From contig NZ_CP107939.1 of assembly GCF_036046055.1 (NCBI RefSeq), positions 2,294,001-2,358,000 of the forward strand: a stretch of 64,000 nucleotides of DNA, written 5' to 3'. Origin of the DNA: Nocardia sp. NBC_00403 (GTDB taxonomy: Bacteria > Actinomycetota > Actinomycetes > Mycobacteriales > Mycobacteriaceae). Shown here piece by piece: positions 124-23,981 of this stretch (its first letter is position 1; the number at the start of each line of letters is the position of its first letter). Both the position numbers and the translations under genes were made by a program. Below the pieces are notes generated by a model. The model was not told where the DNA came from. It made no database searches and saw only the letters and a program-made list of their open reading frames with translations.

Positions 124-1536
124 TCACATATCGTCGCTGGACACTCCGAACCTGCGGCGGATCGGGAACGATGCGAGATAGCCCAGAATCAGTGCGGCCG
201 CGATGATTCCGGTGCCGATCAGTGCGACATTGCGGGCCCGGTGATCAGGTGGTGGGGCCGGTGCGGGCACCGAGAGCTGGGTGCTCTTGGCCTGGCTCGG
301 GCGCTTGGGCGGCAGCGGGCCGGTGACCTCGTTGGTCAGCGCTGCGATCGGGTCGACCGCTCCGTACCCGAGATATTGGTTCCAGCCTTCGGCCGGTGCG
401 TGCGCGGTGGCTTCGATGCGCTTGATGACATCCCGCGCACTCAGTTCCGGAAACCGCGCGCGAATCAGCGCGACAACGCCGGACACCAGTGGCGTTGCGA
501 AACTGGTTCCGCTGACAGGATTCTGCTGGCCACGCTGGTCGGCGACGGTAACGGCGGTACCGCTCCCGCGTGGATTGAGCGAGGTCATATTCTCGCCCGG
601 TGCGGCAACGCCGACCCAGGGACCGGGGATCGTGAACTTGGACGGAGCGCCGTTCGCATCGATCGACCCGACAGCGAGCGCATAGTCGTCCCAACGGGCC
701 GGGCTGATATTCCACTTGACCTTGCTCCAGGGATCGGCGGTCGGGGCGAGCGGATCTATTACCTCGTTGTCGCCTTTACATTTGTCGTCCACATTGCCCG
801 CCGCGACCACGACGACGACGTCCTTCACCACGGTGGCGTAATGGAGGGCCGCGCCGATCTTGTTGTCGGCGTCGGGGCTGGTCGTTCCGCACCAGACCTC
901 GGAGATATTGATGACCGTTGCGCCACGGTCGGCGGCCCGCACGATGGCTGATGCCATGGTGTTCAAGTCGCCATAGCTGTCGGGGAACGCCTCGGGTGCT
1001 TTCTCCCTGGAGCGGCCTTCCTGCTGATACATCTTGCTGGTCTGCCGGATCGTCATGATCCGTGCCTCTGGCGCTACCCCTGAGAATCCCTGGCCGTCCA
1101 CCTGAGATGCGGCGATGAGCCCGGCCACCAGCGTGCCGTGGCCATCGCAGTCCTCGGTGCCGTCGCCCGCATTGGCGACGAAGTCGCCGGCCGCTTCGAG
1201 TCCTCGGAGACGGGGATGCCGAGCCACTCCGGTGTCGATGACCGCGATGACCTGGCCGGCGCCCTTGGAGAATTTCCACGCGCGATCGAGGTCGAGTGAA
1301 CGTTGAGCGGTGGGGATGGCCGGCCCGTCGCCGCCGGTGCCGACGTCGGCACAGTTCGAATTCGGTGGACGCTCGGTCTTTTCGGGCGGAGCGGCGGGGT
1401 CGCCCGGCGGTACCAGACCCGGGTTGACGGCGGGCGGCCGGTCGGCATGTGCGACGCCGTACCCCGAGCCGAGACCGAATGACGCACTAAGGCCCAGCGT
1501 TACGGCGACGGCCGCGACGCGCAGGGTCGCGCTCAC
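124..1536 (-). CDS. mycP: Mycosin, ESX-4-type subtilisin-like serine protease
   Basis: This is the membrane-anchored subtilase of a type VII secretion system. The 470-aa product starts at a GTG overlapping the eccD stop codon by 4 bases (GTGA). A signal peptide covers about residues 1-31 and is followed by a Pro-rich propeptide-like stretch. The catalytic triad is visible: Asp101 in VIDTGV, His133 in DGHGT and Ser345 in SGTSFATP, with Asn248 (AAGN) as the oxyanion residue. One transmembrane helix lies near residues 438-458, followed by a short basic tail. Length and architecture match mycosins. The longer open frame upstream is the shadow of eccD. Because it neighbours eccD, eccC and, further on, rplM-rpsI-glmM, I assign it to ESX-4 (MycP4 type). 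Confidence 0.95.
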   Translation of the reverse strand: MSATLRVAAVAVTLGLSASFGLGSGYGVAHADRPPAVNPGLVPPGDPAAPPEKTERPPNSNCADVGTGGDGPAIPTAQRSLDLDRAWKFSKGAGQVIAVIDTGVARHPRLRGLEAAGDFVANAGDGTEDCDGHGTLVAGLIAASQVDGQGFSGVAPEARIMTIRQTSKMYQQEGRSREKAPEAFPDSYGDLNTMASAIVRAADRGATVINISEVWCGTTSPDADNKIGAALHYATVVKDVVVVVAAGNVDDKCKGDNEVIDPLAPTADPWSKVKWNISPARWDDYALAVGSIDANGAPSKFTIPGPWVGVAAPGENMTSLNPRGSGTAVTVADQRGQQNPVSGTSFATPLVSGVVALIRARFPELSARDVIKRIEATAHAPAEGWNQYLGYGAVDPIAALTNEVTGPLPPKRPSQAKSTQLSVPAPAPPPDHRARNVALIGTGIIAAALILGYLASFPIRRRFGVSSDDM

Positions 1537-2999
1537 AGCCCGCGAACGAGCGAGTAGAGCGAGGCCACCCAGAACACCAGCGGCAGTACGGCGGCGACGA
1601 ACGCGTACTCGAGCAGTTCTACGCCGCGGCGCATCGGCGGCGTCGCCGACTGGTTCGGGATGATGATGCCGAGAATGAGCGCGGCGATCAGGATGACCAT
1701 CGCGGCGCCGAAGACCATCAGCGGCTGCTCCATGCCGATGCTCGCGCCGATCAACATGATCAGCACGATGGCCGCGCCGCCCGCGATCAGCACCACGGCT
1801 TGTTCGGCGCCCGCGTAGGTGCGGCTGCGGAACATCAGCACGATCGCGCAGACCAGTGCGAGCGCGATGCCTTGCCAGTAGGGGCTTTCGGCGTCGGGGT
1901 CGGTGGCCGCCAGCGAACCCGCGACGGTGATGAGCGTGGTCGCCGCGACGAGTCCGCCGAGGTACATGCGGGCCCGTTCCGACTTGACCCGCAGTGCGTC
2001 CATGGTCGGCAGCGCGCGGTGGTCGTCCGGATCGTCCTCGGTCGGGTCGATCGGGGTGCCCGGCGAAGGCACCGGCGGCAGCGGCAGTTTGGCGAGCAGC
2101 ATCGAAACCCGAGGCGCCAGCGAGAGACCGCCGAGTCCGAGTGCGGCGGCGACCGCGCCGATGGCGGGCAGCGACTGCTCGGTGAGCAGACCGACCATCG
2201 CGGCCGGAACGGCGTACACCGCAAGGGTGCTCGCTCCGATGAACAGCGCCAGGCCGACACCGGTGACGCGCCACGCGAGGATCGCGGTGGCGCCGAGCAG
2301 GACCGAGCCGAGCAGGATATGTGCCCAGTCGTATTCGTCGGGCACCAGCAGCATGCCCGCGGTGAACGCCGCGGGCAGCGCACAGCCGGCGAGCACAAGC
2401 GCGGTGCCGGTGTCGCCGTACATGCGGCTGAACACCATGCCTGCGACGACGAGCAGGATGGCGACCGTCAGCGCGATCGATCCGCTCACGTAGCCGGGCA
2501 GCGCGTCCTTGGCCAGCAGCAGACCGAGGCAGCCGACGATCATGGTGATCGCGGCGAGGATAGAGCCGGTGAGTCGCGCGACCTTCGGACTCCAGCTGCG
2601 GTAGTGGTCGGTGTCCGCGATCGCGACGTTGTACATGATGTCGTCGAACAGCGGCATCGGCGCTGTGTGCGAGGCACTTTCGAGCATCAGCAGCTCGCCG
2701 TCGCGGACACCGTGTTCGCCGAGGCTCAGCGAGTTGGAGAACGGCGGATGGCCGATACGGGCGAGCACCCACTCGGCGGGCTCGAAGCGTTCGCCCTGGT
2801 TGTCGAAATCGTTGGTGCGGCTGTGCTGGGCGACCATGTCGACGACGCTCGGAATCACCAGGGCGACGGGAACGTCGACCGGGATCGCCATATCCACCTG
2901 AGTGTGTTTGGCCAGAATCGTCACTCGAGCCAGGTCCGGTGCACGGACGATTCCGCGCGAGGACTCTTCGTCGATGTGGTCAAGGCGCGCGTGCGTCAA
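1533..2999 (-). CDS. eccD: EccD, ESX-4 type VII secretion membrane channel protein
   Basis: EccD forms the main transmembrane part of the ESX inner-membrane complex. The product begins with a ubiquitin-like domain (about residues 20-100, starting near ARVTILAKHTQVD). About eleven hydrophobic helices then fill residues 140-488, including a Pro-rich cytosolic loop with SPGTPIDPTEDDPDD. I chose the TTG at 2999 because GGGGGA sits just upstream; the frame is open to 3071, so a start 24 codons earlier is possible. The 3' end overlaps mycP, so the two are translationally coupled. It diverges from eccC, leaving a 171-base shared promoter region. Family assignment is firm; the ESX-4 subtype is inferred from context. 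Confidence 0.92.
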   Translation of the reverse strand: MTHARLDHIDEESSRGIVRAPDLARVTILAKHTQVDMAIPVDVPVALVIPSVVDMVAQHSRTNDFDNQGERFEPAEWVLARIGHPPFSNSLSLGEHGVRDGELLMLESASHTAPMPLFDDIMYNVAIADTDHYRSWSPKVARLTGSILAAITMIVGCLGLLLAKDALPGYVSGSIALTVAILLVVAGMVFSRMYGDTGTALVLAGCALPAAFTAGMLLVPDEYDWAHILLGSVLLGATAILAWRVTGVGLALFIGASTLAVYAVPAAMVGLLTEQSLPAIGAVAAALGLGGLSLAPRVSMLLAKLPLPPVPSPGTPIDPTEDDPDDHRALPTMDALRVKSERARMYLGGLVAATTLITVAGSLAATDPDAESPYWQGIALALVCAIVLMFRSRTYAGAEQAVVLIAGGAAIVLIMLIGASIGMEQPLMVFGAAMVILIAALILGIIIPNQSATPPMRRGVELLEYAFVAAVLPLVFWVASLYSLVRGL

Positions 3000-3170
3000 G
3001 CTTCCCCCAACTCGTCTTCTACCTCGTGTTTCCGCAACCGGCATACCCAGGGGCCGAGCTTGCGAACCCACGGTTCGGGCAGCAGAATGCTGGTCGAACT
3101 GTACGACATGTCAGCTGCCGGCTCTACACTGAGCCCGAAGTACAGCTGCGTAAGGGGGATTTCTCGTCTG

Positions 3171-6100
3171 ATGAGTACCGTCCGGTTCCAGCGCCGTGCG
3201 CGACGAGAGATGCCGCGTTCTCCCGGCGGTGAAGTCACCTTGCAGCCGCCGCCCGAGATTCCCCGGGTAACGCCGGGCAGCTTGCTCAGCAAGATGATGC
3301 CGGTCGTGATGGTCGTCGGCATGGTCGGGATGATGGCCCTGATGTTCACCCAGGGCGGTGGCATCGCATCGAACCCGATGACCATGATGTTCCCGATGAT
3401 GATGGTCTTCTCCATGGTCGGCATGTTCGCCGGTCAGGGCGGTGGCAAGGGGCAGAAGGCCGCCGAAGCGAACGAGGACCGCAAGGACTATCTGCGCTAT
3501 CTCGACCAGGTGCGCAGGGATGTCGACGACACCGCAAGGCAGCAGCGCGCTTCCGTCGAATGGAGCCACCCGGAGCCCGGCCTGATCTGGATGCTGGCGG
3601 GCACCAGCCGGATGTGGGAGCGGCGTGCGGGGGACAAGGACTTCTGCCACGCCCGCATCGGTATCGGCGGCCAGCGCCTCGCCACGCGACTGGTCGCGCC
3701 GGAGACCGGTCCGGTCGAGGAGCTCGAGCCGATCGCCGCGGTGTCGCTGCGCCGTTTCGTGCGCGCCCACTCGACGGTCCCCGACCTGCCGACCGCGATC
3801 GCGGTGAAAGGCTTCGCGACCATCGCCCTGGACGGCGATCGGGTCGAAGCCAGGGAAATGACTCGCGCAATGTTGTTGCAGCTGTGCATGTTCCAGGCGC
3901 CCGACCAGGTGCTCGTCGCGGTGGTCTGCGGCCCGGACACGGCACGCGAATGGGAGTGGACCAAGTGGCTGCCGCACACCCAGCACCCCGACGCGCAGGA
4001 CGGCATCGGCACCCAGCGCATGTTCTACGGCTCGATTCGCGAGGCCATGACGGGTCTGCATCCGTTGCTGGCCAATCGTGTTCGGTACTCCCGTAATCAG
4101 CCTGCCAACGTCAATCTGGTGCACATCGTCATCGTGGTCGACGGCGGTCTGCTCGAGGCCGAGGACGATCAGCTGCGTGAATCCGGCTACGAGGGCGTCA
4201 CGCTCATCGACTTGTGCGGGTACGCACCGCGTTTGGCGGTATCGCGCGGCATCAAGATGGTCGTGGAGAACGGCGAGTGCGTCGGTCGCGGCGCCACCGG
4301 CAACCAGGAACGTTTCGCGCTGATCGACCGGATTTCCCCGCAGCAGGCTCAGCAGGTGGCACGCAGGCTCGCGCCGTATCGCGCGGCGACCCAGCGCAGC
4401 AGCGATGTCGAGGTCGACGACTCCGAGGTGATCTCGTCGTGGTCGCAGCTGATGAGTCTCGGCGACATCGGCACCTTCAATCCCGAACACGCCTGGCGCC
4501 CACGCTACGGCCGCGAGCGGTTGCGGGTCGCGTTCGGTGTCGGCGCGGACGGTCTTCCGGTCGAGCTCGACATCAAGGAAGCCGCGGAGAGCGGCATGGG
4601 CCCGCACGGATTGTGCATCGGCGCAACCGGTTCCGGTAAGTCCGAGTTCCTGCGCACCTTGGTGCTCAGCCTGCTCGCCACCCATTCACCGGACCAATTG
4701 AACCTGGTGCTCGTCGACTTCAAGGGCGGTGCGACCTTCCTCGGCCTCGACGGCGTTCCGCATGTCGCGGCGGTCATCACCAACCTCGAAGACGAGGCCG
4801 ACCTCGTCGACCGTATGAAGGACGCGCTGGCGGGCGAGATGAACCGCCGCCAGGAAGTGTTGCGCCAAGCGGGCAACTTCGCCAACGTCTCCGAGTACGA
4901 GAAGGCCCGTGCCACGGGCGCGGATCTCGATCCGCTGCCCGCGCTGTTCGTCGTGCTCGACGAGTTCTCCGAATTGCTCACCCAGCACCCGGATTTCGCC
5001 GAGCTGTTCGTGATGATCGGCCGCCTCGGTCGCTCGCTGCACGTGCACCTGCTGCTGGCCTCGCAGCGCCTCGAGGAAGGCAAGCTGAAGGGCCTCGAAA
5101 GCCACCTGTCCTATCGGATCGGTCTGAAGACCTTCTCCGCCAACGAATCTCGCCAGGTGCTCGGTGTCCCCGATGCCTACAACCTGCCGGGCGTTCCCGG
5201 TGGCGGCTATCTGAAGTCGGACTCGGGCGAAATCCAGCGGTTCCAGGCCTCCTATGTCTCCGGCCCGTATGTCGGCGGCGGTTCGCAGCGCGAGGTCACC
5301 AGTGCGGGGATCGCGGGCGGGGAAATCGATGTGAAGGCGCGCCCGTTCGCCGCCGTCCACGTCGACTTCCGGCCCGCCGACCGGATTCCGTTGCAGACCA
5401 CGCCCGCCAACGAGCCGGAGCAGCACTCCGACGACGGCGAACAAATTTCCAACGTGAACATGCTGGTCTCGCGCATCCGCGGCCACGGTCGTCCGGCACA
5501 CGAGATCTGGCTGCCGCCGCTGGATGAGGCGCCCACCCTCGATCAGCTCATCCCGCGCTCCATCCTCACCGGCGAGTACTCGGCCGTCGCGACGTTGCGA
5601 GCCCCGATGGGAATTGTCGACCGGCCCTACGATCAGCGCCGCGATCCGCTGGTCGTCGATCTGTCGGGTTCACGAGGCAACGTCGCGGTGGTCGGCGGTC
5701 CGCAGTCCGGCAAGTCGACCGCACTGCGCACCATGATCATGGCGCTTTCGCTGACCCACACCGCCGAGCAGGTGCAGTTCTACTGCCTCGACTTCGGTGG
5801 CGGCACGCTGGCCAGCCTGCAGGGGTTGCCGCATGTCGGTTCGGTGGCAAGCCGATTGGACGACGACAAGGTCCGGCGCACGGTCGCCGAGATGGGCACC
5901 ATCGTCCGGTCCCGTGAGGCGCGCTTCCGTCAGCTCGGCATCGAGTCCATGACCGAGTTCCGCCGCCTGCGGGCCATGGACCCCGCCAGCAGCCCGGCCG
6001 CTGCGGGCGCGCACGAGGATCCCTTCGGCGACGTCTTCCTGGTGATCGACGGTTTCGGATCCATCCGCCAGGACTTCGATCCGCTCGAGCAGCCGATCAT

Positions 6101-7211
6101 GAACCTTGCGGTGCAGGGTCTTTCGTACGGTGTGCATGTTGTCATCGCACTGGCGCGGTGGGCCGAGGCGCGTCCGGCGCTCAAGGACCAGATCGGCACC
6201 AGGATCGAGCTGCGCCTCGGTGACCCGATGGACTCCGACCTCGGCCGCAAGTTCGCCGCGCTGGTCCCGCAAGGGCGGCCGGGTCGCGGTATGACACCCG
6301 AATGCTTGCACATGCTGACCGGTCTGCCCCGCATCGACGGCAGCGCCGACCCCAACAATCTCGGTGCGGCGGTTGGTGAGGCGGTCGCGACGATCGCCCG
6401 TCTCACGCCGGGCCGGCACGCGCCCGCGGCCCGCATGCTGCCGGAGATGCTGCCGCGCGAACAGCTGTTGCAGCTGGCGGGCAACTGGCCGTCGCAGGTC
6501 GACCCGGACCGCAAGAACATGCGTATTCCCCTCGGTATCAACGAATCCGAGCTCGCGCCGGTCTACATCGACTTCAACGAGAGCCCGCACTTCATCGTCA
6601 TCGGTGACACCGAATCCGGTAAGTCGACATTGTTGCGTTCGCTCGTCGAGGGCATCGCCGCATCGAACACCCCGAATCAGGCGCGCTTCATCCTGGGCGA
6701 CTACCGGCGCACCATGCTCGGTTTGGTGCCCGACGGGTACCTCGCGGGTTACGGATCGACCGCGCCGCAATTCACCCAGAACATGTCCGATCTCGCCGCC
6801 TATGTCGCCCAGCGGACGCCGGGGCAGGACGTTACGCCGCAGCAGCTGCGCGATCGCTCGTGGTGGAGCGGACCGGAGTTGTTCGTCATCATCGACGACT
6901 ACGACCTGGTCGCCACCTCCATGGGCAATCCGGTGTCGGTGCTGGTCGAGCATTTGCCGCACGCTCGCGACCTCGGCTTCCACCTGATCATCGCCCGCCG
7001 CTCCGGCGGCGCGAGCCGCGCGATGTACGAGGCCACGCTGGCCAGGATGAAGGACCTCGGCTCGGCGGGCCTGATCATGAGCTGCAACAAGGACGAAGGC
7101 GTGCTCATGGGCACCACCCGTCCCGGCCCCAAGCCGCCGGGCCGCGGCACCTACGTCACGCGCAACACTGAGGATCTGATTCAGCTGGCGTGGATGCCGG
7201 CGGCGGAGTGA
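3171..7211 (+). CDS. eccC: EccC, ESX-4 FtsK/SpoIIIE-type secretion ATPase
   Basis: EccC is the motor ATPase that recognises WXG100 substrates. The product has 1346 aa. The cytosolic N-terminus (PPPEIPRVTPGSLLSK) leads into two transmembrane helices at about residues 42-90, and then three FtsK-like ATPase domains follow. Their Walker A motifs are GATGSGKSE (about residue 483), GGPQSGKST (about 842) and GDTESGKST (about 1144). The matching Walker B segments are LFVVLDEFSEL, VFLVIDGFGS and LFVIIDDYD. All three P-loops look intact. It is one polypeptide, as expected for EccC4, not the split EccCa/EccCb of ESX-1. The ATG at 3171 begins the family's typical N-terminus. The next gene starts on the last base of its stop codon (TGATG), indicating one operon. 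Confidence 0.96.
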   Translation: MSTVRFQRRARREMPRSPGGEVTLQPPPEIPRVTPGSLLSKMMPVVMVVGMVGMMALMFTQGGGIASNPMTMMFPMMMVFSMVGMFAGQGGGKGQKAAEANEDRKDYLRYLDQVRRDVDDTARQQRASVEWSHPEPGLIWMLAGTSRMWERRAGDKDFCHARIGIGGQRLATRLVAPETGPVEELEPIAAVSLRRFVRAHSTVPDLPTAIAVKGFATIALDGDRVEAREMTRAMLLQLCMFQAPDQVLVAVVCGPDTAREWEWTKWLPHTQHPDAQDGIGTQRMFYGSIREAMTGLHPLLANRVRYSRNQPANVNLVHIVIVVDGGLLEAEDDQLRESGYEGVTLIDLCGYAPRLAVSRGIKMVVENGECVGRGATGNQERFALIDRISPQQAQQVARRLAPYRAATQRSSDVEVDDSEVISSWSQLMSLGDIGTFNPEHAWRPRYGRERLRVAFGVGADGLPVELDIKEAAESGMGPHGLCIGATGSGKSEFLRTLVLSLLATHSPDQLNLVLVDFKGGATFLGLDGVPHVAAVITNLEDEADLVDRMKDALAGEMNRRQEVLRQAGNFANVSEYEKARATGADLDPLPALFVVLDEFSELLTQHPDFAELFVMIGRLGRSLHVHLLLASQRLEEGKLKGLESHLSYRIGLKTFSANESRQVLGVPDAYNLPGVPGGGYLKSDSGEIQRFQASYVSGPYVGGGSQREVTSAGIAGGEIDVKARPFAAVHVDFRPADRIPLQTTPANEPEQHSDDGEQISNVNMLVSRIRGHGRPAHEIWLPPLDEAPTLDQLIPRSILTGEYSAVATLRAPMGIVDRPYDQRRDPLVVDLSGSRGNVAVVGGPQSGKSTALRTMIMALSLTHTAEQVQFYCLDFGGGTLASLQGLPHVGSVASRLDDDKVRRTVAEMGTIVRSREARFRQLGIESMTEFRRLRAMDPASSPAAAGAHEDPFGDVFLVIDGFGSIRQDFDPLEQPIMNLAVQGLSYGVHVVIALARWAEARPALKDQIGTRIELRLGDPMDSDLGRKFAALVPQGRPGRGMTPECLHMLTGLPRIDGSADPNNLGAAVGEAVATIARLTPGRHAPAARMLPEMLPREQLLQLAGNWPSQVDPDRKNMRIPLGINESELAPVYIDFNESPHFIVIGDTESGKSTLLRSLVEGIAASNTPNQARFILGDYRRTMLGLVPDGYLAGYGSTAPQFTQNMSDLAAYVAQRTPGQDVTPQQLRDRSWWSGPELFVIIDDYDLVATSMGNPVSVLVEHLPHARDLGFHLIIARRSGGASRAMYEATLARMKDLGSAGLIMSCNKDEGVLMGTTRPGPKPPGRGTYVTRNTEDLIQLAWMPAAE

Positions 7212-8668
7212 TGTCCGTCGTCGACCTGGTGGTCACCGACACGCGTATCTGGGCGTGCGGTCCGGCCACCCATTGGGATGTGCCGCCGTCGGTTGTGCTC
7301 GGCAGCAACGGGAATCTGGTCGTCGGTGAGCCGTTGACGCCGCCGACCCAGGTCAGCTCCGCCGTCCAGTTCGTCACGGGGGAGCGGATCGCACTGCTGC
7401 CACGGGTGCCCGCCGTCGCCGAGGCGATGACAGCGATCGTCGGCACTGTGCTGCAGAACCTCGGCGTCGCCACCCCCTGCGGCCGGGTCACCGTCGCGTG
7501 TCCGACGGAGTGGGGCGCGCGACGGCGTGCGGTTCTCGAGGCCGCACTGCGCCGCTTCGCCAACGATGTCGTCTTCGAGGACATGGCCGTTCGCGCGGTG
7601 GCTGCCGATGAGGGCGCCGACCGCAGCAGCCGTACGGTGGTGCTGGAATTCGGCACGCTGTCGACCACCGCGAGCACCGTCGTGCGCAGCCATCAGGGCA
7701 CGCATGTCGAATCATGTGAGCACGAACCGAATCTCGCGCTGGCCGACCTCGGCCCAGACCCGCAGGCCGCCGACGATCTTGCCGCGCTCGTCGGCCGGCT
7801 GCTCGCGGGCCGCCCGGCCGATGTCGTTCAGGTGGTGGGTGTTTCGGATCCGGCGAAACTCGAGGTGATCCGTTCGGTGGTTCCGCCGATCGCTGGACCG
7901 GCCGTCGAACTGCGGCCGATCGCAGGCGCCGACCTGGTGCGCGGGCCGCGGCCGGACCCCGACTATCGGACCGAGGCTGTCTCGGCGCTGCCGACCGCGG
8001 AGTGGATGCAGCCGCTTCGACAGCGTGCGGCCGCTGTCGGGGGCCCCGACCGTCGCCGCACCGGATACCTGGTCGCCGCGGTCGCCGGTGTTCTGGTGGT
8101 CGCCGCCGCCGCGGTGGGAGCGGTCGTCGTCCTCGGCGGCTCGCAGGACACTCCCGCGGTGCCTGCGGGAGCTTCGGCGTCGGTCCACGCCACCGCGCAA
8201 GCGACGGCCGACGGCCAGCCTGCGCCACCACCTGGAGGCGCACCGTCATCGGAAACCATTGGGCGCGTGCGTTTTCAGACACCGGCGGGCTGGCGTCTCG
8301 CGCAGGCTCCTGACCCGAGCAAGCCACGCGTCGACCTCGTACCGGAGGACGGCAGCCGCATGCGGATCACCGTGATCCAAACGCCGGTCGCCGCCGGGAT
8401 CGGTTATGAGCAGGTGGCCAGGAGCCTCGAGGCGCAGATGCGGCAGAAGCCGAATGGTGCGTTGACCGATCTGAAGCATGACCAGGTGTTCGGCGGAAAG
8501 TCGGGCCTCGCCTATATCGAACGGCCGGGTGATGGTTCCACGGTGCGTTGGCATGTGCTGGTCGAACACGGGCTTCAGGTCAGCACCGGATGTCAGTTCC
8601 TCGGCGAGTGGGAGTCGATTGCGCCGGCCTGCGAACAGTTCGCGGCCTCGGTGCAGGTGACTCCGTAA
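7211..8668 (+). CDS. Type VII secretion-associated protein (Rv3446c-like)
   Basis: This 485-aa product occupies the position of M. tuberculosis Rv3446c in ESX-4 and resembles the proteins annotated as type VII secretion-associated (TIGR03931; recalled, not searched). The N-terminal half resembles a degenerate actin/Hsp70-like fold (VDLVVTDTRIWACG at the start, VVLEFGTLSTTAST near residue 145). A single transmembrane helix lies at about residues 288-310. After a Pro/Ala-rich linker comes an exported domain of about 140 aa beginning near RVRFQTPAGWRL and containing two Cys. The start overlaps the eccC stop, so expression with eccC is expected. Its molecular function is unknown. It is the last gene of the eccC operon and faces the esx pair. 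Confidence 0.85.
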   Translation: MSVVDLVVTDTRIWACGPATHWDVPPSVVLGSNGNLVVGEPLTPPTQVSSAVQFVTGERIALLPRVPAVAEAMTAIVGTVLQNLGVATPCGRVTVACPTEWGARRRAVLEAALRRFANDVVFEDMAVRAVAADEGADRSSRTVVLEFGTLSTTASTVVRSHQGTHVESCEHEPNLALADLGPDPQAADDLAALVGRLLAGRPADVVQVVGVSDPAKLEVIRSVVPPIAGPAVELRPIAGADLVRGPRPDPDYRTEAVSALPTAEWMQPLRQRAAAVGGPDRRRTGYLVAAVAGVLVVAAAAVGAVVVLGGSQDTPAVPAGASASVHATAQATADGQPAPPPGGAPSSETIGRVRFQTPAGWRLAQAPDPSKPRVDLVPEDGSRMRITVIQTPVAAGIGYEQVARSLEAQMRQKPNGALTDLKHDQVFGGKSGLAYIERPGDGSTVRWHVLVEHGLQVSTGCQFLGEWESIAPACEQFAASVQVTP

Positions 8669-8725
8669 AACGTTGTGCCCGTGGAGAATCAATCCATGGG
8701 GCATCGACACCGGATAAAAATTCGT

Positions 8726-8750
8726 GCCCCCGGCAGAATCTGCCGGGGGC
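8726..8750 (-). terminator. Intrinsic terminator of the esx pair
   Basis: The arms GCCCCCGGCAGA and TCTGCCGGGGGC form a perfect 12-bp inverted repeat around one base, so the real loop is formed by opening the centre. Reading the minus strand, a TTTTT run follows a few bases after the stem. This is a strong terminator for the WXG100 operon and separates it from the convergent eccC operon. Confidence 0.85.
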
Positions 8751-8774
8751 GCGAATGGTCTGAGTTGTTCAGTG

Positions 8775-15407: not shown

Positions 15408-16610
15408 TCAGAGACTGTTGGCGAGCAGCGCGTATTGCGCCGCGACCTTCTGCCGGACATCGGGCTCTTTGTCACTGGTCACCACGCCGACGTACTGCTT
15501 GTACGGCACATAGCACCGGTATTTGTATTCGCGGTCCGGATCGCCTTTGCCATTGAGCTCCAGGCACTTTGCGCCGGGAACATCGTTGGGTGCGCCGATC
15601 GGGTCGAACTGGCTGCCGGCGCTGCCGATGAGTCCGCTGATGAGTTTCTCGGCAGCGGCGGAATCGCGCGCCCGCGTCACGGAGCTGGCATCGACGATGG
15701 CGACGCGGTCGACACCGGTCTCCTCCATCAGGCGTTTGCGGACGCCTTCGTCCTCGGAGGAGCTGATCATGAAATTCGCTCCGTAGATGGCGAAGCTGAT
15801 GCCGTCGGGGGTATGTCCCTTGCGGTCGGCGACCGCGACCCTGGCCAGTAGGCCGTCGGGGTCGACCTTCAGGGTGCCGAGCTTGTTCTGTGGAGTGGCC
15901 TGGAATTTGTCCAGCGCGGGGACCTGGGCGGCGAGGGTCTTGTCGACCCAGCTCAACAGGTCGGGGCCGTCGGCCTTCGGGCGCTGGACGAAAAGCGAGA
16001 TGACGAATTCCTTGTAGGCCATGAAGGTGCCGATGGTGGGAACGCCAGGGCGCCAATGGTTATAGGAGTCGGGGAATTTCGTCGACTGGAGTTTGCGGTT
16101 GTCGGGGGAGACCGCGAGATCGGTGTCCTCCAACTCCCTGGCGGCGAGCTTCGCGGTGGCCTCGTCGGGGAAGCGGAGCACGACATTGGTGACGGAGGTG
16201 GCCTCCGGCGACGGCCGCTTCTCGCCGGGCGGATCCGGCCGGTCCGCGCCGATGGCGGCGTAGCCGACGACCATCTTGCGGTTCTCCAGGATCGGTTTGG
16301 ACACGTTGGCCAGAAATTCGATGGCATCCTCGGCGGTGGCGAGCAGCGTGCTGCCGCGCCCGTAGCTGAGTACCGGGTCGATCCGCACGGTCGGGACTAC
16401 GAACTCCGACATCCGCATGCCCTCGAGCAGCGCCCCGTTGCTGCCCGCGTCCTGTGGGTACTTGTGACGGTCGACCTGATAACTGCCGACCTCCAACTTG
16501 CGGACGTCCAGTTCCCCGGCGGTCGGCGTCCCCGGCACGCTGCATCCGGTCACGACACCCGCCAGTCCGATACAGGCCGCGGCCAGCGCAATGCGCGAAA
16601 TCCGAACCAT
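15408..16610 (-). CDS. Lipoprotein, paralogue 4 of 4 (DUF7373-like)
   Basis: This 400-aa lipoprotein has a clear signal peptide (MVRISRIALAAACIGLAGVV) and lipobox VTGCS. The ATG at 16610 follows GAGGGG. The family blocks are LEVGSYQVD, FQATPQNKLGTLKVDPDGLLAR, paired Cys (AKCLEL and YRCYVPYKQYVGVV) and the ending KVAAQYALLANSL. It is the first lipoprotein gene of the minus-strand run and diverges from the FHA gene on the plus strand, with about 145 bases between them for promoters. The family is found in the cell envelope of actinobacteria by annotation, but I know of no assigned function. Confidence 0.86.
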   Translation of the reverse strand: MVRISRIALAAACIGLAGVVTGCSVPGTPTAGELDVRKLEVGSYQVDRHKYPQDAGSNGALLEGMRMSEFVVPTVRIDPVLSYGRGSTLLATAEDAIEFLANVSKPILENRKMVVGYAAIGADRPDPPGEKRPSPEATSVTNVVLRFPDEATAKLAARELEDTDLAVSPDNRKLQSTKFPDSYNHWRPGVPTIGTFMAYKEFVISLFVQRPKADGPDLLSWVDKTLAAQVPALDKFQATPQNKLGTLKVDPDGLLARVAVADRKGHTPDGISFAIYGANFMISSSEDEGVRKRLMEETGVDRVAIVDASSVTRARDSAAAEKLISGLIGSAGSQFDPIGAPNDVPGAKCLELNGKGDPDREYKYRCYVPYKQYVGVVTSDKEPDVRQKVAAQYALLANSL

Positions 16611-16755
16611 GACAGGCCCCTCATTCCTCCCGTTTGTACATGTGAAGTTACCGGAGTCACGCGCAGAAGGTTCAATAGATCGTGTCGCTCGTATTGCCAT
16701 ACTCTGGTGTCGTGAGGACGAACCCGCACTCCACAGCCGTCGGGGGCCGATACCG

Positions 16756-18051
16756 TTGAGGGATCGGCAGGTTGAGGTCGTCGCCGGAGGTCACGCGGTC
16801 GCCAGGGTCGGGGGCGCGGTGGTGGTCGTCGCCCATCGCGGGCCGGGCAAGCCGACTCCGCAATCACCTGCTGTGCTGGCCCTGGAATCGATCGCCGAGC
16901 TCATCCGTACGGCCGCCGAGCAGCAGCCCGCCGGGCCGGGCGCGCTGGTGGCACGGCAGGCCACCCGCTGGTTGATGAAGCACGCCGAACAGATCAGCCC
17001 GGGGGAGCCGATCGATTTCGGTGTGCTTTCCGCGGCCGAGGCCGGCGGGGTGGCGATTTTCCTGCACGGTTCGGTTACCGCGGTGCTCGCCGGAGACGGC
17101 ACAGTCGAGCGATATCGAGGCAGCGACGCGGCCTTCACCGTCGATCGCGTCGCGAGCGTCCCGGCACGGGCGGTCGCATTGTTCGTCGACGATGCCAAGG
17201 GTCGCGTCCCCGAGCTGCCCGCCGAGCGGGGGATCGGCTGGCTGGTGGAGGGCATCGCACAGGCAGGCGGCGCCATCGTCTGGTCGGATCCGGTGCGCGG
17301 TAGGTCCGGCGGGGTCGGACCTACCGCCGGCCATCGGCGCATCGCGCCGCCGACCGCGCATATTGATGCGGCGCCCACGCCTGCCTCCGAATCGGATGCG
17401 GACCCGTATCCGACCGGCACACAGGCGTCGACGGCGATGCTCGATGCCGCCCAGGATCAGCACGGCATCGACCTGCACTACGCGCCCACTCAGGCAGGCG
17501 GCACCAACCCGGCGCCGCTACCGGATCCGGATCTGCAGCGCAGGCTGGAGGCCACCGCCAAGGCCACCGTCCTCACGGTGAAAGTGCTCGGATTCAAGTG
17601 TGCGCGTGCCCATCCCAGCGATCCGCGCTCGGCGTTCTGCACCGTGTGCGGGATGCCGGTCGACCAGACCCAGCAGTTGATCGAGGTGGTCCGTCCGCCG
17701 CTCGGCATGCTGATCCTCGACGACGGCAGGACCTACATGCTGGCCGCAGACGCCGTGCTCGGCCGCGACCCCGAGCATTCCGAGCAGGCACAGCGCGGCC
17801 TGATTCCGCTCGAGGTCAAGGACTCCTCCGGCGGTATGTCCCGCGCGCACGCCGAGATCATGCTGGTGAATTGGGATGTGTCCGTGGTGGATCGGGGATC
17901 CACCAATGGCACCCGCACCCGCCTGCCCGGCTACCGCGATTGGGTGCGGCTGCCACCGAATCAGCCGCTGGTGCTGGTGCCGGGCACCGAGATCCTGATC
18001 GGCAACCGCGTCCTGCGATTCGAACCCGCCGCCCCGCCGCCCTTCGGCTAG
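16756..18051 (+). CDS. FHA-domain protein with a Cys/His cluster
   Basis: This cytosolic protein has about 431 aa. The N-terminal half (about residues 10-190) is an alpha/beta region without a family I can name. A disordered linker follows, then a Cys/His cluster of form C-x3-H-x9-C-x2-C (KCARAHPSDP and FCTVCGMP), probably a zinc site. The C-terminal FHA domain shows VLGRDPEHSE, MSRAHAEI and DRGSTNGT, the usual phosphothreonine-binding residues. The start is uncertain: the TTG at 16756 has GGGGG upstream. A short overlapping frame from GTG 16712 ends exactly at this TTG. Given the nearby kinase, it is a likely phospho-reader; this is inference. Confidence 0.8.
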   Translation: MRDRQVEVVAGGHAVARVGGAVVVVAHRGPGKPTPQSPAVLALESIAELIRTAAEQQPAGPGALVARQATRWLMKHAEQISPGEPIDFGVLSAAEAGGVAIFLHGSVTAVLAGDGTVERYRGSDAAFTVDRVASVPARAVALFVDDAKGRVPELPAERGIGWLVEGIAQAGGAIVWSDPVRGRSGGVGPTAGHRRIAPPTAHIDAAPTPASESDADPYPTGTQASTAMLDAAQDQHGIDLHYAPTQAGGTNPAPLPDPDLQRRLEATAKATVLTVKVLGFKCARAHPSDPRSAFCTVCGMPVDQTQQLIEVVRPPLGMLILDDGRTYMLAADAVLGRDPEHSEQAQRGLIPLEVKDSSGGMSRAHAEIMLVNWDVSVVDRGSTNGTRTRLPGYRDWVRLPPNQPLVLVPGTEILIGNRVLRFEPAAPPPFG

Positions 18052-18120
18052 CGCACTGCGTGTACGAGTACTGTCACGCCCCGACCGGCGGCCAGGACGG
18101 TCAGCGGCTCGGTTCTGCGG

Positions 18121-19566
18121 TCACGAATATCGCGACATACAGGTCTTTTCGCCGTTGATGACGCCCGCGCGAAACGCGTCGACACGAGAGAATCCACTTC
18201 GCACGGTCTGGCCCTGGACGTCGCTTGCTGCCAGTCCGTCTGTCAGCAATCCTGATACTGCTTCGTCGAGATCGCCTGCGGCGAGGGTGATATCGCCCTG
18301 TGAGATCGGACGCCCCGCTTGGGCGAGTTTCCCGGTGACCACCCCGGACAGGCAGGCCGCACGCAATCCGGTCTTGGCGCCGACCAGCTGCTGGCCGTTG
18401 CTCTGCTGTACGGCAAGGGTGTATCGGGAGATGAAGACGACGTAGCCGTTGTAGTCGCCGGTCACCTTCAATGGCAACGGATTGTCGATGTCGGCGTTGG
18501 AGGTGCCGCGCTGCGCGAGTTCCGGGATATCGGTCGCGATGGTGTTCGCGGCGGGACAGTAGGAGACGGGTTCGGTGGTGACGCCGTCGCGGCAGTCGAT
18601 CTTCGCGCCGGAGTAGTTATAGGTCGGTGTCTGCTCGATCGGCAGGATCGCGGCGAGCGCCTTGCTCAGCTCGATCAGGTTTTCCTTGGTGATCGGGTAT
18701 TCGCCGCGGCCCTGGTCGCCGGTGAAACTCTGTGGCAGATTGCCGCGCCGCCGCGCGATCTCGTTGATATCAATAGCCTTGCAGGCCTTGGGTCCGTCGG
18801 TGAAACCGACCTGCACCGCGGTGACCCGTTCGAAGGCCGAGCCGTGCACGCTCTCCGGATCGTCGGGGTCGGCATCGCGGATCGCGACCGTCGCGGCGAG
18901 CACCGAGTTGAGGCCATCGGAGGTGTTGATGGTGAAATGCGCGGCGCCGCCCTCGGCCACATGCCGCATGAACGAGCCCGCGAAGCAGTCGGCCTGCTGT
19001 TCCTTGACGATCACCGGGTCCTTGGGCGCGACGATCTTCGCCATGCTCTGGATCGCGTGCCCGTATTCGTGAGCGAGCACCATGACCACCGACATTTTGC
19101 CGAAAGTGTCCTCCATGGTCGGCAGCAACACCGAACGGTCCCAGCCGATGGAGTTGTCCAGTCGGCAGTACGCGGCGTTCACGAGGTGATAGGTGGTTTC
19201 CTTACAGAACTCGGGAGCCTGACTCTTCTGCGCTTTCGCGCTCCAGGAGATGAGCTTGTCGACCGGCTTGAACTCGCCCTGGAATTCTTTGCCGAATTCG
19301 CCGCGCCAATAGGTTTGGATATCGTCGACGGCGTTGAGGGCGAGGGTGTCGGTCGCGCTGCCATCGCCGTTGGTTGCCGTGAGTCCGGTATCGGGGACGC
19401 CGGCGCGCGGTCCGCTCGGTCCGCTGGTGGTCGGCAGCCCCGCCACTTTGAATGGATCGTCGTAGACCGAGACCGCCCTGCCCTGCACCGAACGGGTGCA
19501 GCCGGCCAACAGCGTCACCGCGCACAGGACGGCCGTAAAGAGGGCGGTCGCTTGGAGTTTCGGCAA
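18121..19566 (-). CDS. Lipoprotein neutral zinc metallopeptidase
   Basis: This 481-aa lipoprotein has lipobox LLAGC after a short signal. The TTG at 19566 is chosen because GGGGGAGCC lies immediately upstream and a signal peptide starts there; the frame upstream lacks both. The catalytic zinc motif HEYGH (in VMVLAHEYGHAIQ) and a third-ligand candidate Glu in KEQQADCFAGSF place it with the neutral zinc metallopeptidases of the YpfJ-like family (PF04228 by recall). Several Cys in the C-terminal half suggest disulfides. It converges with the FHA gene and diverges from the FHA-ABC exporter gene. Its substrate is unknown; an envelope or secreted protein is likely. Confidence 0.88.
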   Translation of the reverse strand: MPKLQATALFTAVLCAVTLLAGCTRSVQGRAVSVYDDPFKVAGLPTTSGPSGPRAGVPDTGLTATNGDGSATDTLALNAVDDIQTYWRGEFGKEFQGEFKPVDKLISWSAKAQKSQAPEFCKETTYHLVNAAYCRLDNSIGWDRSVLLPTMEDTFGKMSVVMVLAHEYGHAIQSMAKIVAPKDPVIVKEQQADCFAGSFMRHVAEGGAAHFTINTSDGLNSVLAATVAIRDADPDDPESVHGSAFERVTAVQVGFTDGPKACKAIDINEIARRRGNLPQSFTGDQGRGEYPITKENLIELSKALAAILPIEQTPTYNYSGAKIDCRDGVTTEPVSYCPAANTIATDIPELAQRGTSNADIDNPLPLKVTGDYNGYVVFISRYTLAVQQSNGQQLVGAKTGLRAACLSGVVTGKLAQAGRPISQGDITLAAGDLDEAVSGLLTDGLAASDVQGQTVRSGFSRVDAFRAGVINGEKTCMSRYS

Positions 19567-19672
19567 GGCTCCCCCTGGTCGGCCGGAAAGACGTTCACAT
19601 CGGTCGCCGGATCGGGGTAATGGCGCATCGGGGGCACCGCCGATGTCCGGGTGATGGAATAGTATCCGCTGC

Positions 19673-22162
19673 ATGTCTTCACCGGGGGCGCAGACCATCA
19701 CCGTGCGCCATGATGGAACCGAACGGGTTTTCGATTCGAGCAATCCGATCACGATGGGCCGCGCGCCGGAAGTGACGCTGTTCGTCGACAGCCCGCTCGT
19801 CTCACGAGTGCACGCGACGCTGACCTGGCAGGGGAGTGCCTGGGTGCTGACCGACAACGGCAGCACGAACGGCGTTTTCGTGGATGCGCGCAGGCTAGGC
19901 CAGCCCGTTTCGATCGATCGGCCGACTCAGGTTCGGCTCGGTGATGCCATCAGCGGCCCACTGCTACATCTGCTTCCCGCTGTTCCCTCGCCCCGACAGG
20001 CGCGCACCCACTTGGCGCCGCCGCCGGGCCACCACCACCAGCAGCGGCAACCGCCGCAGTCGGGGCAGCTGCCGCCGTCCGCGCAGTTGCCGCAGTCGGG
20101 GCAGTTGCCACAGAACGTGCCGTCGCAGCAGCTCAATATCAATATGACGACCAGGGCCGACACCTCCTCACTGCCGCCGCTGCGGGCCAGACCGTCCACT
20201 TCGCAGATCGCCCGCGGCGACCGCCTGCCGCCCGGCGGCCTCGACATCGGCCGCACCACCGACAACCAGATCGTCGTCAACGACCCACTGGCCTCGCGCA
20301 AGCATGCCCGCCTCGTCGCAGCCAAGGAGGGGCTGACGATCGAGGACCTCGGTTCGGCGAACGGCACCTTCGTCAACGGCCGCCGCGAGCAGCGCACGGT
20401 GCTGCGCGAGCGCGACATCATCACCATCGGCAATATCGACTTCGTCGTCCAGCAGGGCACTTTGGTGCATCGGCAGAAGCCGGTCGCCGAGCAAGGCCTG
20501 CACGTGCACGGCGTCGGGTTCACCGTCGAGGGCAACAAGCAGCTGCTCGTCGATGTCAATATGCAGGCCGGGCGCGGCACGCTGACCGCGCTGATCGGAC
20601 CCTCCGGTGCGGGCAAGTCGACGCTGTCCAAGCTGATCGCGGGCACCACCAACCCCTCCGGCGGTGTGGTCACCTTCGAAGGGCGCAACCTGCACGCCGA
20701 GTACGAGGCATTGCGTTCCCGCATCGGCATGGTGCCGCAGGACGACGTGCTGCATCGGCAGCTCACTGTGCGTCAGGCGCTCGGGTATGCCGCGGAACTG
20801 CGCTTGCCGCCCGACAACAGCAAGGCCGATCGCCAGCAGGTGATCGACGGTGTGCTGAAAGAACTTTCGCTCACCGAGCACGCCGACACCAGGGTCGACC
20901 GGCTCTCCGGCGGTCAGCGCAAGCGTGCCTCGGTGGCGCTGGAGCTGCTGACCGGTCCGTCGCTGCTGATCCTGGACGAACCGACCTCGGGTCTCGACCC
21001 GGCCCTCGATCGCCAGGTGATGGTGATGCTGCGCGAGCTGGCCGACGCCGGTCGCGTTGTCATCGTGGTGACCCACTCGGTGGCCTGCCTCGACATGTGC
21101 GATCAGGTGCTGCTGCTCGCACCCGGCGGCAAGACGGCCTTCTGTGGCCACCCGGCCGGGGTCGGTGGCGCGCTCGGCACCAGCGACTGGGCGGAGATCT
21201 TCGCCAAGGTCGCCGCGAACCCGGACCAGGCGTTCGCCGCCTACCGCTCCAGACAGGCCGCTGTGCCGCCGCCACCGCCGCCCGCGCAGACCGGGCATGC
21301 GGGTAGCCCACCCCAATCCAGTGGTGGCAAACAGTTCTCCACCTTGGCGCGACGGCAGGTGCGCCTGATCTTCGCCGACCGCGGATATCTGGCGTTCCTG
21401 GTGATCCTGCCGTTCATTCTCGGTGTGCTGTCGCTGGTGGTGCCCGGCCAGAACGGCTTCCAACGCGGCGCGCTCGCGGCGCTGCCGGACGGCACCTTCG
21501 CCCCGACCGGAGGTAGCGAGACCCAGCAGCTGTTGGTGGTGCTCATCCTCGGTGCCTGCTTCATGGGTTCCACGCTCACCGTGCGCGACCTGGTCGGCGA
21601 GCGCACCATCTTCTTCCGGGAGCGTGCGGTCGGACTGAAGCCCTCCGCGTACCTGATGGCGAAGATCGCCGTTTTCAGCGTCACGGCGTTCCTGCAGTCG
21701 GCGGTGCTCGTCGGCATCACCCTCGCGGGTAAAAAGGCGCCCGCCGAGGGGTCGGTGATCGCCAACGGCAGCGTCGAGCTGTACATCGATATCTCGTTGA
21801 CCGCGGTCTGCTGTGTGGTCTTCGGCCTGCTGCTCTCCAGCCTGGCCAGGTCGAACGAGCAGGTGATGCCGATGCTCGTGGTGATGATCATGGCCCAGCT
21901 CGTGATGGCGGGCGGCCTGATCCCGGTCACCGGCCGCGTGGTGCTGGAGCAGCTGTCGTGGCTTTTCCCGGCCCGCTGGGGATATGCCGCAGGGGCGTCG
22001 ACGGTGAATGTTCGCGAGGTCTTCCTCAACGCGCAACCGGACACGCTCTGGCAGCACAAATCCGACATCTGGGGACTGGACGTCGGTCTGCTCGTGGTGA
22101 TCACGGTGATCCTGGCGATCTTCACCTGGCGCAAGCTGCGGCTGAAGAAGTCGGCGGCGTGA
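19673..22162 (+). CDS. ABC exporter with two FHA domains (Rv1747-like)
   Basis: This 829-aa single-chain ABC transporter resembles M. tuberculosis Rv1747. FHA domain 1 (about residues 8-100) has TMGRAPEV, SRVHATL and DNGSTNGVF. A Gln/Pro-rich linker follows, then FHA domain 2 (about 180-265) with DIGRTTDN, SRKHARL and LGSANGTFVN. The ATPase domain (about 275-500) has Walker A GPSGAGKST, signature LSGGQRKR and Walker B LLILDEPTSGLDP. The C-terminal ABC2-type membrane domain (about 560-825) has about six helices. In Rv1747 a Thr between the FHA domains is phosphorylated by a kinase; here the transmembrane kinase gene nearby is the obvious candidate. The substrate is unknown; export of lipid or glycolipid is the family guess. 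Confidence 0.93.
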   Translation: MSSPGAQTITVRHDGTERVFDSSNPITMGRAPEVTLFVDSPLVSRVHATLTWQGSAWVLTDNGSTNGVFVDARRLGQPVSIDRPTQVRLGDAISGPLLHLLPAVPSPRQARTHLAPPPGHHHQQRQPPQSGQLPPSAQLPQSGQLPQNVPSQQLNINMTTRADTSSLPPLRARPSTSQIARGDRLPPGGLDIGRTTDNQIVVNDPLASRKHARLVAAKEGLTIEDLGSANGTFVNGRREQRTVLRERDIITIGNIDFVVQQGTLVHRQKPVAEQGLHVHGVGFTVEGNKQLLVDVNMQAGRGTLTALIGPSGAGKSTLSKLIAGTTNPSGGVVTFEGRNLHAEYEALRSRIGMVPQDDVLHRQLTVRQALGYAAELRLPPDNSKADRQQVIDGVLKELSLTEHADTRVDRLSGGQRKRASVALELLTGPSLLILDEPTSGLDPALDRQVMVMLRELADAGRVVIVVTHSVACLDMCDQVLLLAPGGKTAFCGHPAGVGGALGTSDWAEIFAKVAANPDQAFAAYRSRQAAVPPPPPPAQTGHAGSPPQSSGGKQFSTLARRQVRLIFADRGYLAFLVILPFILGVLSLVVPGQNGFQRGALAALPDGTFAPTGGSETQQLLVVLILGACFMGSTLTVRDLVGERTIFFRERAVGLKPSAYLMAKIAVFSVTAFLQSAVLVGITLAGKKAPAEGSVIANGSVELYIDISLTAVCCVVFGLLLSSLARSNEQVMPMLVVMIMAQLVMAGGLIPVTGRVVLEQLSWLFPARWGYAAGASTVNVREVFLNAQPDTLWQHKSDIWGLDVGLLVVITVILAIFTWRKLRLKKSAA

Positions 22163-22226
22163 ATCCCGCCGGTACCCGTGCCGGCGCCGACGCGCCGCGC
22201 ATGTCGGACACGCACCAGGCACACTT

Positions 22227-23981
22227 ATGCCTGTGACGGTGCGAGTAGGGGCGGTACATCTCGGTTGGGATGTGGTGTCCGTGGCTGCGGGCGGCGGCGG
22301 CACGCCGATCCGCCCGGTACAGGTGGAAGGTACGTATACGCCGCCCGCGTATCTGCTGGCGGATGCGTCGGGGCGGTTGCACACCGCCGGGGTGGAGCGG
22401 CAACGACCAGATCTGGGGATGGCCATCGCCGACGTGCGCGACATCCTCGGGCATCCGCAGATCGTGATCGCGGGCGCGACCTGGCCCGCGGAACTGGTGA
22501 TGCGGGCTCGGATGTACAACCCGCTCGCGGCCGTCGGCAAATACCTGCGCGGTAAGCCCGACGTGGTGGCCCTGCCCTTCCCGGACAGCTGGCCCGACGA
22601 GAAGGTCGAGGTGTTCGCCGAACTGGTCGAACAGCTCGATGTCACCGTCGAGCCGCTGCCGGAGAGTGTCGCGCTGTCGGGGTACGTGCGTGCGCTGGGG
22701 CTGGTCCGCGCGCCCGACGAGCGCAACTCGCGCGGTATCGGCGCCACCGGCGTGTACTCCGACGGCAGGACCATGCTGGTTGTCGCGGTGCACGGCGACG
22801 ACGAGCAGCCGACCGAATCGGTCGACGTCATGGTCAACGCGGAATCGATGCGTGATGCCCGCTCCGCGGACAACGTGGTGATCGAGGTGATGGCGGCGGC
22901 CCGCTCCATCGGCGCGGACACCTCGACGGTGCTGCTGTCGGGCAATGTGTGCTTCAACGACGCGCTGCGGCTGGCCTTCCAGAATCATCTCGGGCACCGG
23001 TTGCAGGTGGCCGATCATCCGATGCACGCGCTGGTGCTCGGCGCCGCGCACCTGCTGGCCACCGACAACGAAAACGGGGAGCCGGAATCGGCGGGCAGGC
23101 ACGCGGAACCGGGGCCGCAACGGCAGGCCGGGCCGCAGCTGTCGGCGCCGCCTCCGGTGCAATCCGCGCAATATCAGGCCGAAGCGGCTCAGCAGCATCA
23201 ACGTCAGGCGGAGCCACCGCAGCGTCAGCCCGAATCGGCGCAGCGCCAGGGCGAGGCGATGCAGGGCCGTCCCGACCAGTCGCAGCCACGACGGGACGCG
23301 GTTGTGCAGTACGGAGCCGGATACCCGACCGCCGGATCGCAGGACCCGAGCGAAGACGCGACCACCCGGGTCCCGCGCGAGGATGTTCCCCGCGGCCTGC
23401 CGCCGGGTTTGGCCGAGCTCGGCAGCCGTTTCACCAGGCCGCCCGGCCAGCAGCCCGACGAACAGCGCCCACAGAGCGCGCCGCCCGCACCCGCGCCGCC
23501 GCCCAGTGCGGGATCCGGTATCCAGGTGCCGCCGCTGGGTCCGCGTCACCCCTACGGGCCACCGCAGACCGGCCCGGAGCAGGTCCAGCACGGGCAGTGG
23601 CAGCCGCCACCGCCCGAATCGGACGACGACGGTAAAGCGCGCAAGGGCAAGCGGTGGAACAAGCTCAAGGACAACCTGTTCGGTGCGAACGTGGTGCTGG
23701 GTGCGGTGGCGTTGGCCGTCGTGGCCATGCCGTCCGACGGTGAGCAGGCCGGTCCGGTGCAGCTCGCATCGGCTTCCTGCACGCTGACCCCGCAGATCAC
23801 CAACGAGCACCGGCCGGGCGTCGCCTCGGCGCGCGGACACCAGGTCGGTGCGCTGGAGCGCGGTGGCGCGGAGGGCGACGCCGACGAGCCGGACTGTGCA
23901 CAACCGGGCATCGACACCCTGCGCTTCGTGGTGCCCGGCCCGCCGGGAGCCACCGACCCCGGTCCGCCCATCACGATCTGA
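22227..23981 (+). CDS. Hsp70/actin-fold-like membrane protein with Gln/Pro-rich linker
   Basis: This 584-aa protein begins VRVGAVHLGWDVVSVAAGG, like the first strand pair of an Hsp70/actin fold. The N-terminal about 275 residues are such a domain, but without clear nucleotide-binding signatures. A long low-complexity segment rich in Gln, Pro and Ala (about 285-465) follows. One hydrophobic helix (about 489-504) comes after a basic stretch (KARKGKRWNK), and a short extracytoplasmic tail with two Cys ends the protein. It follows the ABC exporter by 64 bases on the same strand. It resembles the protein encoded at 44207-45769 in plan. A role as regulator or scaffold for the secretion or export complex is speculation. 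Confidence 0.75.
   Translation: MPVTVRVGAVHLGWDVVSVAAGGGGTPIRPVQVEGTYTPPAYLLADASGRLHTAGVERQRPDLGMAIADVRDILGHPQIVIAGATWPAELVMRARMYNPLAAVGKYLRGKPDVVALPFPDSWPDEKVEVFAELVEQLDVTVEPLPESVALSGYVRALGLVRAPDERNSRGIGATGVYSDGRTMLVVAVHGDDEQPTESVDVMVNAESMRDARSADNVVIEVMAAARSIGADTSTVLLSGNVCFNDALRLAFQNHLGHRLQVADHPMHALVLGAAHLLATDNENGEPESAGRHAEPGPQRQAGPQLSAPPPVQSAQYQAEAAQQHQRQAEPPQRQPESAQRQGEAMQGRPDQSQPRRDAVVQYGAGYPTAGSQDPSEDATTRVPREDVPRGLPPGLAELGSRFTRPPGQQPDEQRPQSAPPAPAPPPSAGSGIQVPPLGPRHPYGPPQTGPEQVQHGQWQPPPPESDDDGKARKGKRWNKLKDNLFGANVVLGAVALAVVAMPSDGEQAGPVQLASASCTLTPQITNEHRPGVASARGHQVGALERGGAEGDADEPDCAQPGIDTLRFVVPGPPGATDPGPPITI

Follow-up and report, generated by a model that had tools for sequence, protein, structure and literature searches.

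A receptor-type Ser/Thr kinase and DUF7373 lipoproteins between ESX-4 and rplM in Nocardia

Gene content of the block and of the adjoining ESX-4 locus

The window analyzed here is a stretch of 64,000 nucleotides of Nocardia sp. NBC_00403 (contig NZ_CP107939.1, positions 2,294,001–2,358,000 of the forward strand), the genome of which is 8.73 Mb in one contig. The window contains genes of the ESX-4 type VII secretion system (T7SS) and, between these and rplM, a block of 14.1 kb, which extends from the gene of a receptor-type Ser/Thr kinase, named KIN (9849), to the stop codon of the gene HSP (23981). This agrees with a preliminary description of the DNA, which had placed about 14 kb before rplM. 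Judging by its genes, the block is composed of two modules, namely module A (KIN and the DUF7373 lipoproteins) and module B (an FHA protein, the putative zinc peptidase ZNP, an FHA-ABC exporter and HSP), the latter located by rplM:

9849–11426, minus strand: KIN, Ser/Thr kinase of the receptor type, including an ectodomain of about 145 aa (Pkinase, 144 bits)
11578–12801, minus strand: LP1, DUF7373 lipoprotein (PF24088 and PF24092)
12835–14031, minus strand: LP2, DUF7373 lipoprotein (PF24088 and PF24092)
14039–15244, minus strand: LP3, DUF7373 lipoprotein (PF24088 and PF24092)
15408–16610, minus strand: LP4, DUF7373 lipoprotein, divergent from FHA (PF24088 and PF24092)
16756–18051, plus strand: FHA protein (PF00498); start set according to a relative of 431 aa, a longer open reading frame (ORF) starting at 16609
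18121–19674, minus strand: ZNP, putative lipoprotein zinc peptidase (PF04228, 25.7 bits, cut-off 23.2)
19673–22162, plus strand: FHA-FHA-ABC-ABC2 exporter (PF00498 in two stretches, PF00005, PF01061)
22227–23981, plus strand: HSP, conserved protein of unknown family (no Pfam or NCBIfam match)

The Pkinase match of KIN and the presence of all of the ALK, HRD and DFG motifs confirm the transmembrane Ser/Thr kinase of the preliminary description. Structure comparison matched the kinase domain to PknF, among tied kinases. The predicted model of the ectodomain had a pLDDT (predicted local distance difference test) of at least 82 in every block of ten; the structure search with KIN returned lists filled by kinase chains and was hence uninformative on the ectodomain fold. 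When 53 KIN proteins were compared with Pfam, families other than kinase-like ones matched at most three members each, with E-values of at least 0.03.

Both DUF7373 domains were found in all four window proteins and in 70/70 family members. Four lipoproteins had been proposed here; the lipobox pattern fits LP1 and LP4 and finds no match in LP2 and LP3. Since the latter belong to the family, and the N-terminal cysteine is kept in at least 90% of its 70 members, the lipoprotein label was retained for LP2 and LP3 as well.

In module B, the start of the FHA protein follows a close relative (P0001, 431 aa, 98% identical). PF00498 was found in 23/23 members of this family, and the GRD, SRAH and NG motifs are present. 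A degenerate PP2C domain was suspected by eye in the N-terminal half, but no Pfam phosphatase matched among the 23 members, and the sole match among PDB sequences was at chance level (E 0.55). The exporter combines two FHA domains with their motifs, an ABC ATPase and an ABC2 membrane domain in one chain, so that two FHA proteins, one of them an ABC exporter, were correctly recognized earlier. The same is true of the secreted zinc protease: ZNP is a putative member of the Zn_peptidase family with an HEYGH motif and a lipobox-like LAGC that matches the lipobox pattern, although it scores below the cut-off of NF050010 (NCBIfam). The label "Hsp70-like" for HSP found no support in Pfam or NCBIfam, and Pfam Hsp70 was found in 0/5 orthologues; a relation of HSP to the Rv3446c-type protein as a paralogue was not supported either.

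The genes flanking the block are the following:

124–1536, minus strand: mycP, mycosin (TIGR03921, 422.7 bits, cut-off 278.75)
1533–3071, minus strand: eccD, start uncertain (TIGR03920, 441.7 bits)
3171–7211, plus strand: eccC of ESX-4, EccCa/EccCb (TIGR03924 and TIGR03925, above cut-off)
7211–8668, plus strand: Rv3446c-type T7SS-associated protein (TIGR03931, 158.5 bits, cut-off 47.6)
8726–8750, minus strand: terminator-like hairpin past the WXG100 pair (11 pairs, 10 of them G-C, with a T tract; pattern scan)
8775–9074, minus strand: WXG100 protein, esxB (TIGR03930, 47.6 bits, cut-off 44.85)
9105–9440, minus strand: WXG100 protein, esxA (TIGR03930, 45.8 bits, cut-off 44.85)
24126–24569, plus strand: rplM, right-hand neighbour of the block (TIGR01066, 190.6 bits)

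In addition, eccB (TIGR03919) and eccE (TIGR03923) lie directly to the left of the window, both above cut-off. By these models, ESX-4 is complete here (EccB, EccC, EccD, EccE, MycP and the WXG100 pair) and is a canonical T7SSa, with EccC matching the T7SSa models TIGR03924 and TIGR03925. The ESX-4 neighbourhood described earlier (mycP, eccD, the Rv3446c-type protein, the WXG100 pair and rplM) thus stands on curated cut-offs, and every gene class was at its place apart from the HSP label; eccC itself had been omitted.

The WXG100 pair is oriented in the same direction as KIN and the lipoprotein genes, with a gap of 408 nt from KIN, and it is possible from this layout that KIN and the pair share one transcript. 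The hairpin taken alone is weak, as the scan gave five terminator-like sites in 8.4 kb versus 6.0 in shuffled sequences. The orientation of the pair was reversed in 2/27 named loci. Two types of WXG100 pair were seen by KIN, namely that of the window (9105–9440) and a more divergent one (L080, 10026–10689; profile scores of about 50 and 25 bits versus about 90–120), which faces KIN in relocated loci.

Linkage of KIN, DUF7373 and the WXG100 pair across genomes

A DUF7373 gene directly adjoined a KIN-type kinase gene (kinase domain plus KIN ectodomain) in 67/67 cases: 54/54 in the loci of named genomes (a set that includes several strains of one species) and 13/13 in the 18 loci elsewhere, of which L230–L233 and L194 were picked through DUF7373 matches and not through KIN. 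Seven DUF7373 genes were found in the genome of the window, namely four in the block, two by a second KIN (L180) and one between two other kinases (L194). A natural fusion of kinase, transmembrane segment and DUF7373 in one chain was found in a related genus (L202) and was the only case seen. Another chain, of 833 aa in genus g2 (L217, 6143–8644), contains an Hsp70/HscA-type ATPase, a proline-rich linker, a transmembrane segment (by eye) and a DUF7373 ectodomain; this architecture suggests that DUF7373 might be a general sensor joined to various cytosolic domains.

These data bear on an alternative in which the kinase and the FHA-ABC exporter form a switch of the PknF–Rv1747 type for an envelope lipid, and the DUF7373 proteins carry the exported lipid instead of sensing. 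We consider it unlikely: DUF7373 adjoins KIN directly in all 67 cases, even outside the block, and its fusions to a kinase and to an Hsp70-type protein suit a sensor better than a carrier.

The number of KIN copies per named locus was 0, 1 and 2 in 8, 45 and 8 loci, respectively, as minimum counts within 10 kb per side. The median identity between named loci was 81% for the kinase domain and 53% for the ectodomain (1323 pairs). Since the number of cassettes varies and the ectodomain changes faster, the comparison suggests that the input may be diversified and the FHA/exporter output fixed. It would also be conceivable, though very improbable, that the DUF7373 proteins are polymorphic self-recognition or immunity proteins, encoded close to a secretion system in a locus that changes rapidly.

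All 61 loci with the FHA protein of the block in named genomes belonged to Nocardia. The order FHA-ZNP-ABC-HSP-rplM was found in 53 of them; six of the other eight were cut by a contig end, and L136 and L156 had no ZNP after FHA within the sequence examined. A DUF7373 gene lay divergently beside FHA in 59/61. In several Nocardia (L136–L138, L140–L145, L153–L156, L177, L241 and L242), an Rv3446c-type gene, extra or relocated, was observed between LP4-FHA and the series of DUF7373 genes. The distance from eccC to FHA-ABC was 8.6–23.7 kb on one contig in 88 of the 127 Nocardia genomes having both, and in all 88 a KIN gene was located within 12 kb of eccC; this arrangement is therefore not due to chance. 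The KIN survey comprised the best 150 matches, so that an unlisted genome may contain a lower-scoring kinase; this is the case in G082 and G148, with a best E of about 1e-95.

For comparison, 112 genomes of the family outside Nocardia with rplM were used. The eccC–rplM distance was 1.4–14.6 kb (median 2.9 kb) in 65 and 12.9–19.1 kb in four genomes of the related genus g16; in 10 it was at least 27 kb on the same contig, and in 22 the genes were on different contigs. For 11 of the 112 no eccC match was used; G029, G100 and G112 were left out, having only distant ones (36–38% identity) among the matches listed. Relative to the family, the block is thus, on these distances, extra Nocardia DNA between ESX-4 and rplM.

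Among the Nocardia genomes examined, the block was found broken at four places, in 14 loci in all. These are the loci inspected, and more may exist; in 35 genomes, eccC and FHA-ABC were on different contigs, and "broken" was used only where the loci were read. In the first break (G022, G096, G109, G169 and G213), eccC, the WXG100 pair, KIN and DUF7373 are together, and FHA, ZNP, ABC and HSP are at rplM; the ESX-4 part lies near eno in G022, G109, G169 and G213 (4/4 tested). In the second (G158, G167, G198, G206, G215 and G222; the eccC contig of G206 is only 18.5 kb), eccC has a separate location with the Rv3446c-type gene, and the WXG100 pair, KIN, DUF7373 and module B form one group, which includes rplM wherever the sequence extends that far. 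Because of these six genomes, module A can no longer be said to follow eccC in all cases. Their eccC stretches (L160–L165) contained no clear WXG100 gene, the one match having 12 bits and no WxG (L161); with the pair at the rplM block beside KIN, one machine may use distant substrates. In the third break (G186 and G220), FHA travels with ESX-4 and KIN, and the exporter is at rplM. In the fourth (G225), ZNP and the exporter are separated by unrelated genes over about 53 kb; this stretch (C1, approximately 1189300–1242700; L243–L246) has many small ORFs and is perhaps a mobile element.

Distant homologues of the FHA protein lie near a transporter set (pst genes, by eye) or an antiporter (CPA2, tested in L048 only). 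Their assignment to a PknG/glutamine-transporter locus was wrong, as they adjoin a small kinase of 269–290 aa. In genera g9 and g16 an open 517-aa/147-aa/FHA gene set was observed beside an antiporter and a small kinase, in g16 at ESX-4; a broken remnant of this set lies by nuo genes (by eye) at about 6.245 Mb in the genome of the window (L073).

A candidate sensory circuit and its alternatives

The locus bears on two wider questions, namely how bacterial receptor Ser/Thr kinases are activated and what role ESX-4 has. Gene content and order, the KIN–DUF7373 adjacency, the L202 fusion, the motifs of kinase and FHA domains and the association with the WXG100 pair in broken loci are joined by a structural prediction, in which the DUF7373 fold corresponds to that of the PknH sensor domain. 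We give about even chances to the reading that DUF7373 lipoproteins are detached sensors of KIN, that the FHA protein and the exporter read phosphothreonines and that ESX-4 secretion and envelope export are tuned in this way. The lipoproteins, which would be exchangeable and face outward from the membrane, would bind the KIN ectodomain and switch the kinase on in response to envelope signals. KIN would then phosphorylate targets recognized by the FHA protein and by the exporter through its FHA domains. These readers would tune export, and the activity of ESX-4 would change through the linkage of KIN to the WXG100 pair.

A number of observations weigh against this circuit. In fold, DUF7373 matches a predicted model, and TiME ties with this match. 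Profile comparison found no similarity between the KIN ectodomain and DUF7373, and the candidate of one shared domain was dropped. DUF7373 is present in 45/121 family genomes searched; outside Nocardia, 23 of 31 DUF7373 loci (a subset of the matches; two more loci examined had no DUF7373 gene) have neither a kinase beside or fused nor an Hsp70 fusion. M. tuberculosis, according to PMC4118811, already has PknH-like sensor lipoproteins (LpqQ, LprH, LppH, LpqA) and Rv3705c.

Further points favour another explanation, namely that KIN–DUF7373 senses the envelope as an autonomous cassette and often inserts into variable DNA upstream of rplM, that module B is a separate envelope export function and that neither controls ESX-4. 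No ESX gene was matched in about 20 kb around the cassettes at L180, L181, L184, L190 and L192. Module B remains with rplM when ESX-4 departs. In three genomes, G082, G134 (78% complete) and G148, eccC and the WXG100 pair occur but lack a KIN neighbour, and G082 and G148 retain module B nevertheless. However, across the four breakpoints the WXG100 pair, KIN and DUF7373 were unseparated in 14/14 broken loci (KIN and the pair being no more than 3 kb and two small genes apart), a figure which counts genomes and not independent breaks. A second ESX-4-like eccC has cassettes on its flanks in G130, G168, G187 and G221 (L182/183, L185/186, L187/188 and L189). In G181, moreover, KIN is missing together with every DUF7373 gene, the exporter and the FHA gene of the block; eccC, the WXG100 pair, ZNP and HSP are retained. 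An autonomous cassette is quite possible, though it falls short of an even chance.

The second ESX-4-like locus of these four genomes has an eccC of about 55%; a similar locus, here with no cassette, lies in the genome of the window about 32–36 kb before its left end (L095). It may be the ESX-4EVOL of PMC4791881.

The preliminary description had suggested one phospho-controlled secretion or envelope system tied to ESX-4. What stands is that KIN and DUF7373 form one unit, that this unit stays with the WXG100 pair in the broken loci and that G181, which retains ESX-4, has neither this unit nor the block FHA gene and the exporter. One obligate system does not follow: comparison of the segment from esx to rplM points to co-occurrence of two modules, with module B staying at rplM or kept without KIN by ESX-4, and with cassettes at sites without a matched ESX gene.

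Returning to the sensor reading, we propose only tentatively, and with more doubt than confidence, that Nocardia has a split receptor kinase with a changeable panel of PknH-fold DUF7373 proteins, whose cassettes, multiplied next to the WXG100 pair, gate ESX-4 and link it via FHA readers to the FHA-ABC exporter as a sensory circuit for a T7SSa. KIN, the lipoproteins with a predicted sensor fold and the WXG100 linkage give a concrete hypothesis of ligand, kinase, reader and machine with defined partners, and DUF7373, of which no mention under that name was found in the open PMC literature, thereby gains a first likely role.

Comparison with known systems

Neither a role of DUF7373 as partner of a kinase nor a kinase/FHA circuit for the ESX-4 of Nocardia was found in the open PMC literature, a search that leaves subscription papers uncovered. 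The M. tuberculosis pair PknF–Rv1747 consists of a kinase and an FHA-ABC exporter (PMC3908365), and the block likewise has an FHA-FHA-ABC-ABC2 exporter near a receptor-type kinase. In contrast to that two-gene operon, some 8 kb separate KIN (minus strand) from the exporter (plus strand); the interval contains the genes of the DUF7373 lipoproteins, of another FHA protein and of a zinc peptidase, and ESX-4 adjoins. Compared with the PknH-like lipoproteins (PMC4118811), the proteins described here have a second half, DUF7373_C, the PknH family matched none of the 70 DUF7373 members by sequence, and their genes form cassettes with a kinase whose ectodomain differs; the PknH receptor has kinase, transmembrane segment and sensor in one chain, and in KIN, profile comparison showed no DUF7373-like sensor in the ectodomain.

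In T7SSc-j, genes of kinases, FHA proteins and PPM phosphatases accompany WXG100/FtsK-type secretion genes, and phospho-regulation was proposed (PMC11217815). The window similarly has secretion genes beside kinase and FHA genes, but its machine is a canonical T7SSa ESX-4, and FHA domains are on a separate protein and an ABC exporter. In GlnH–GlnX–PknG, a lipoprotein sensor was proposed to relay an external signal to a Ser/Thr kinase (PMC6069109); GlnH is a solute-binding protein acting via the membrane protein GlnX, whereas KIN has its own transmembrane segment and ectodomain, and the lipoprotein is predicted to be PknH-like. Thus, the pairing of a kinase with FHA-ABC and PknH-like lipoproteins are already known, kinases and FHA proteins in T7SS clusters are on record, and sensing by a lipoprotein for a kinase has been proposed; their combination was not found in the open PMC literature.
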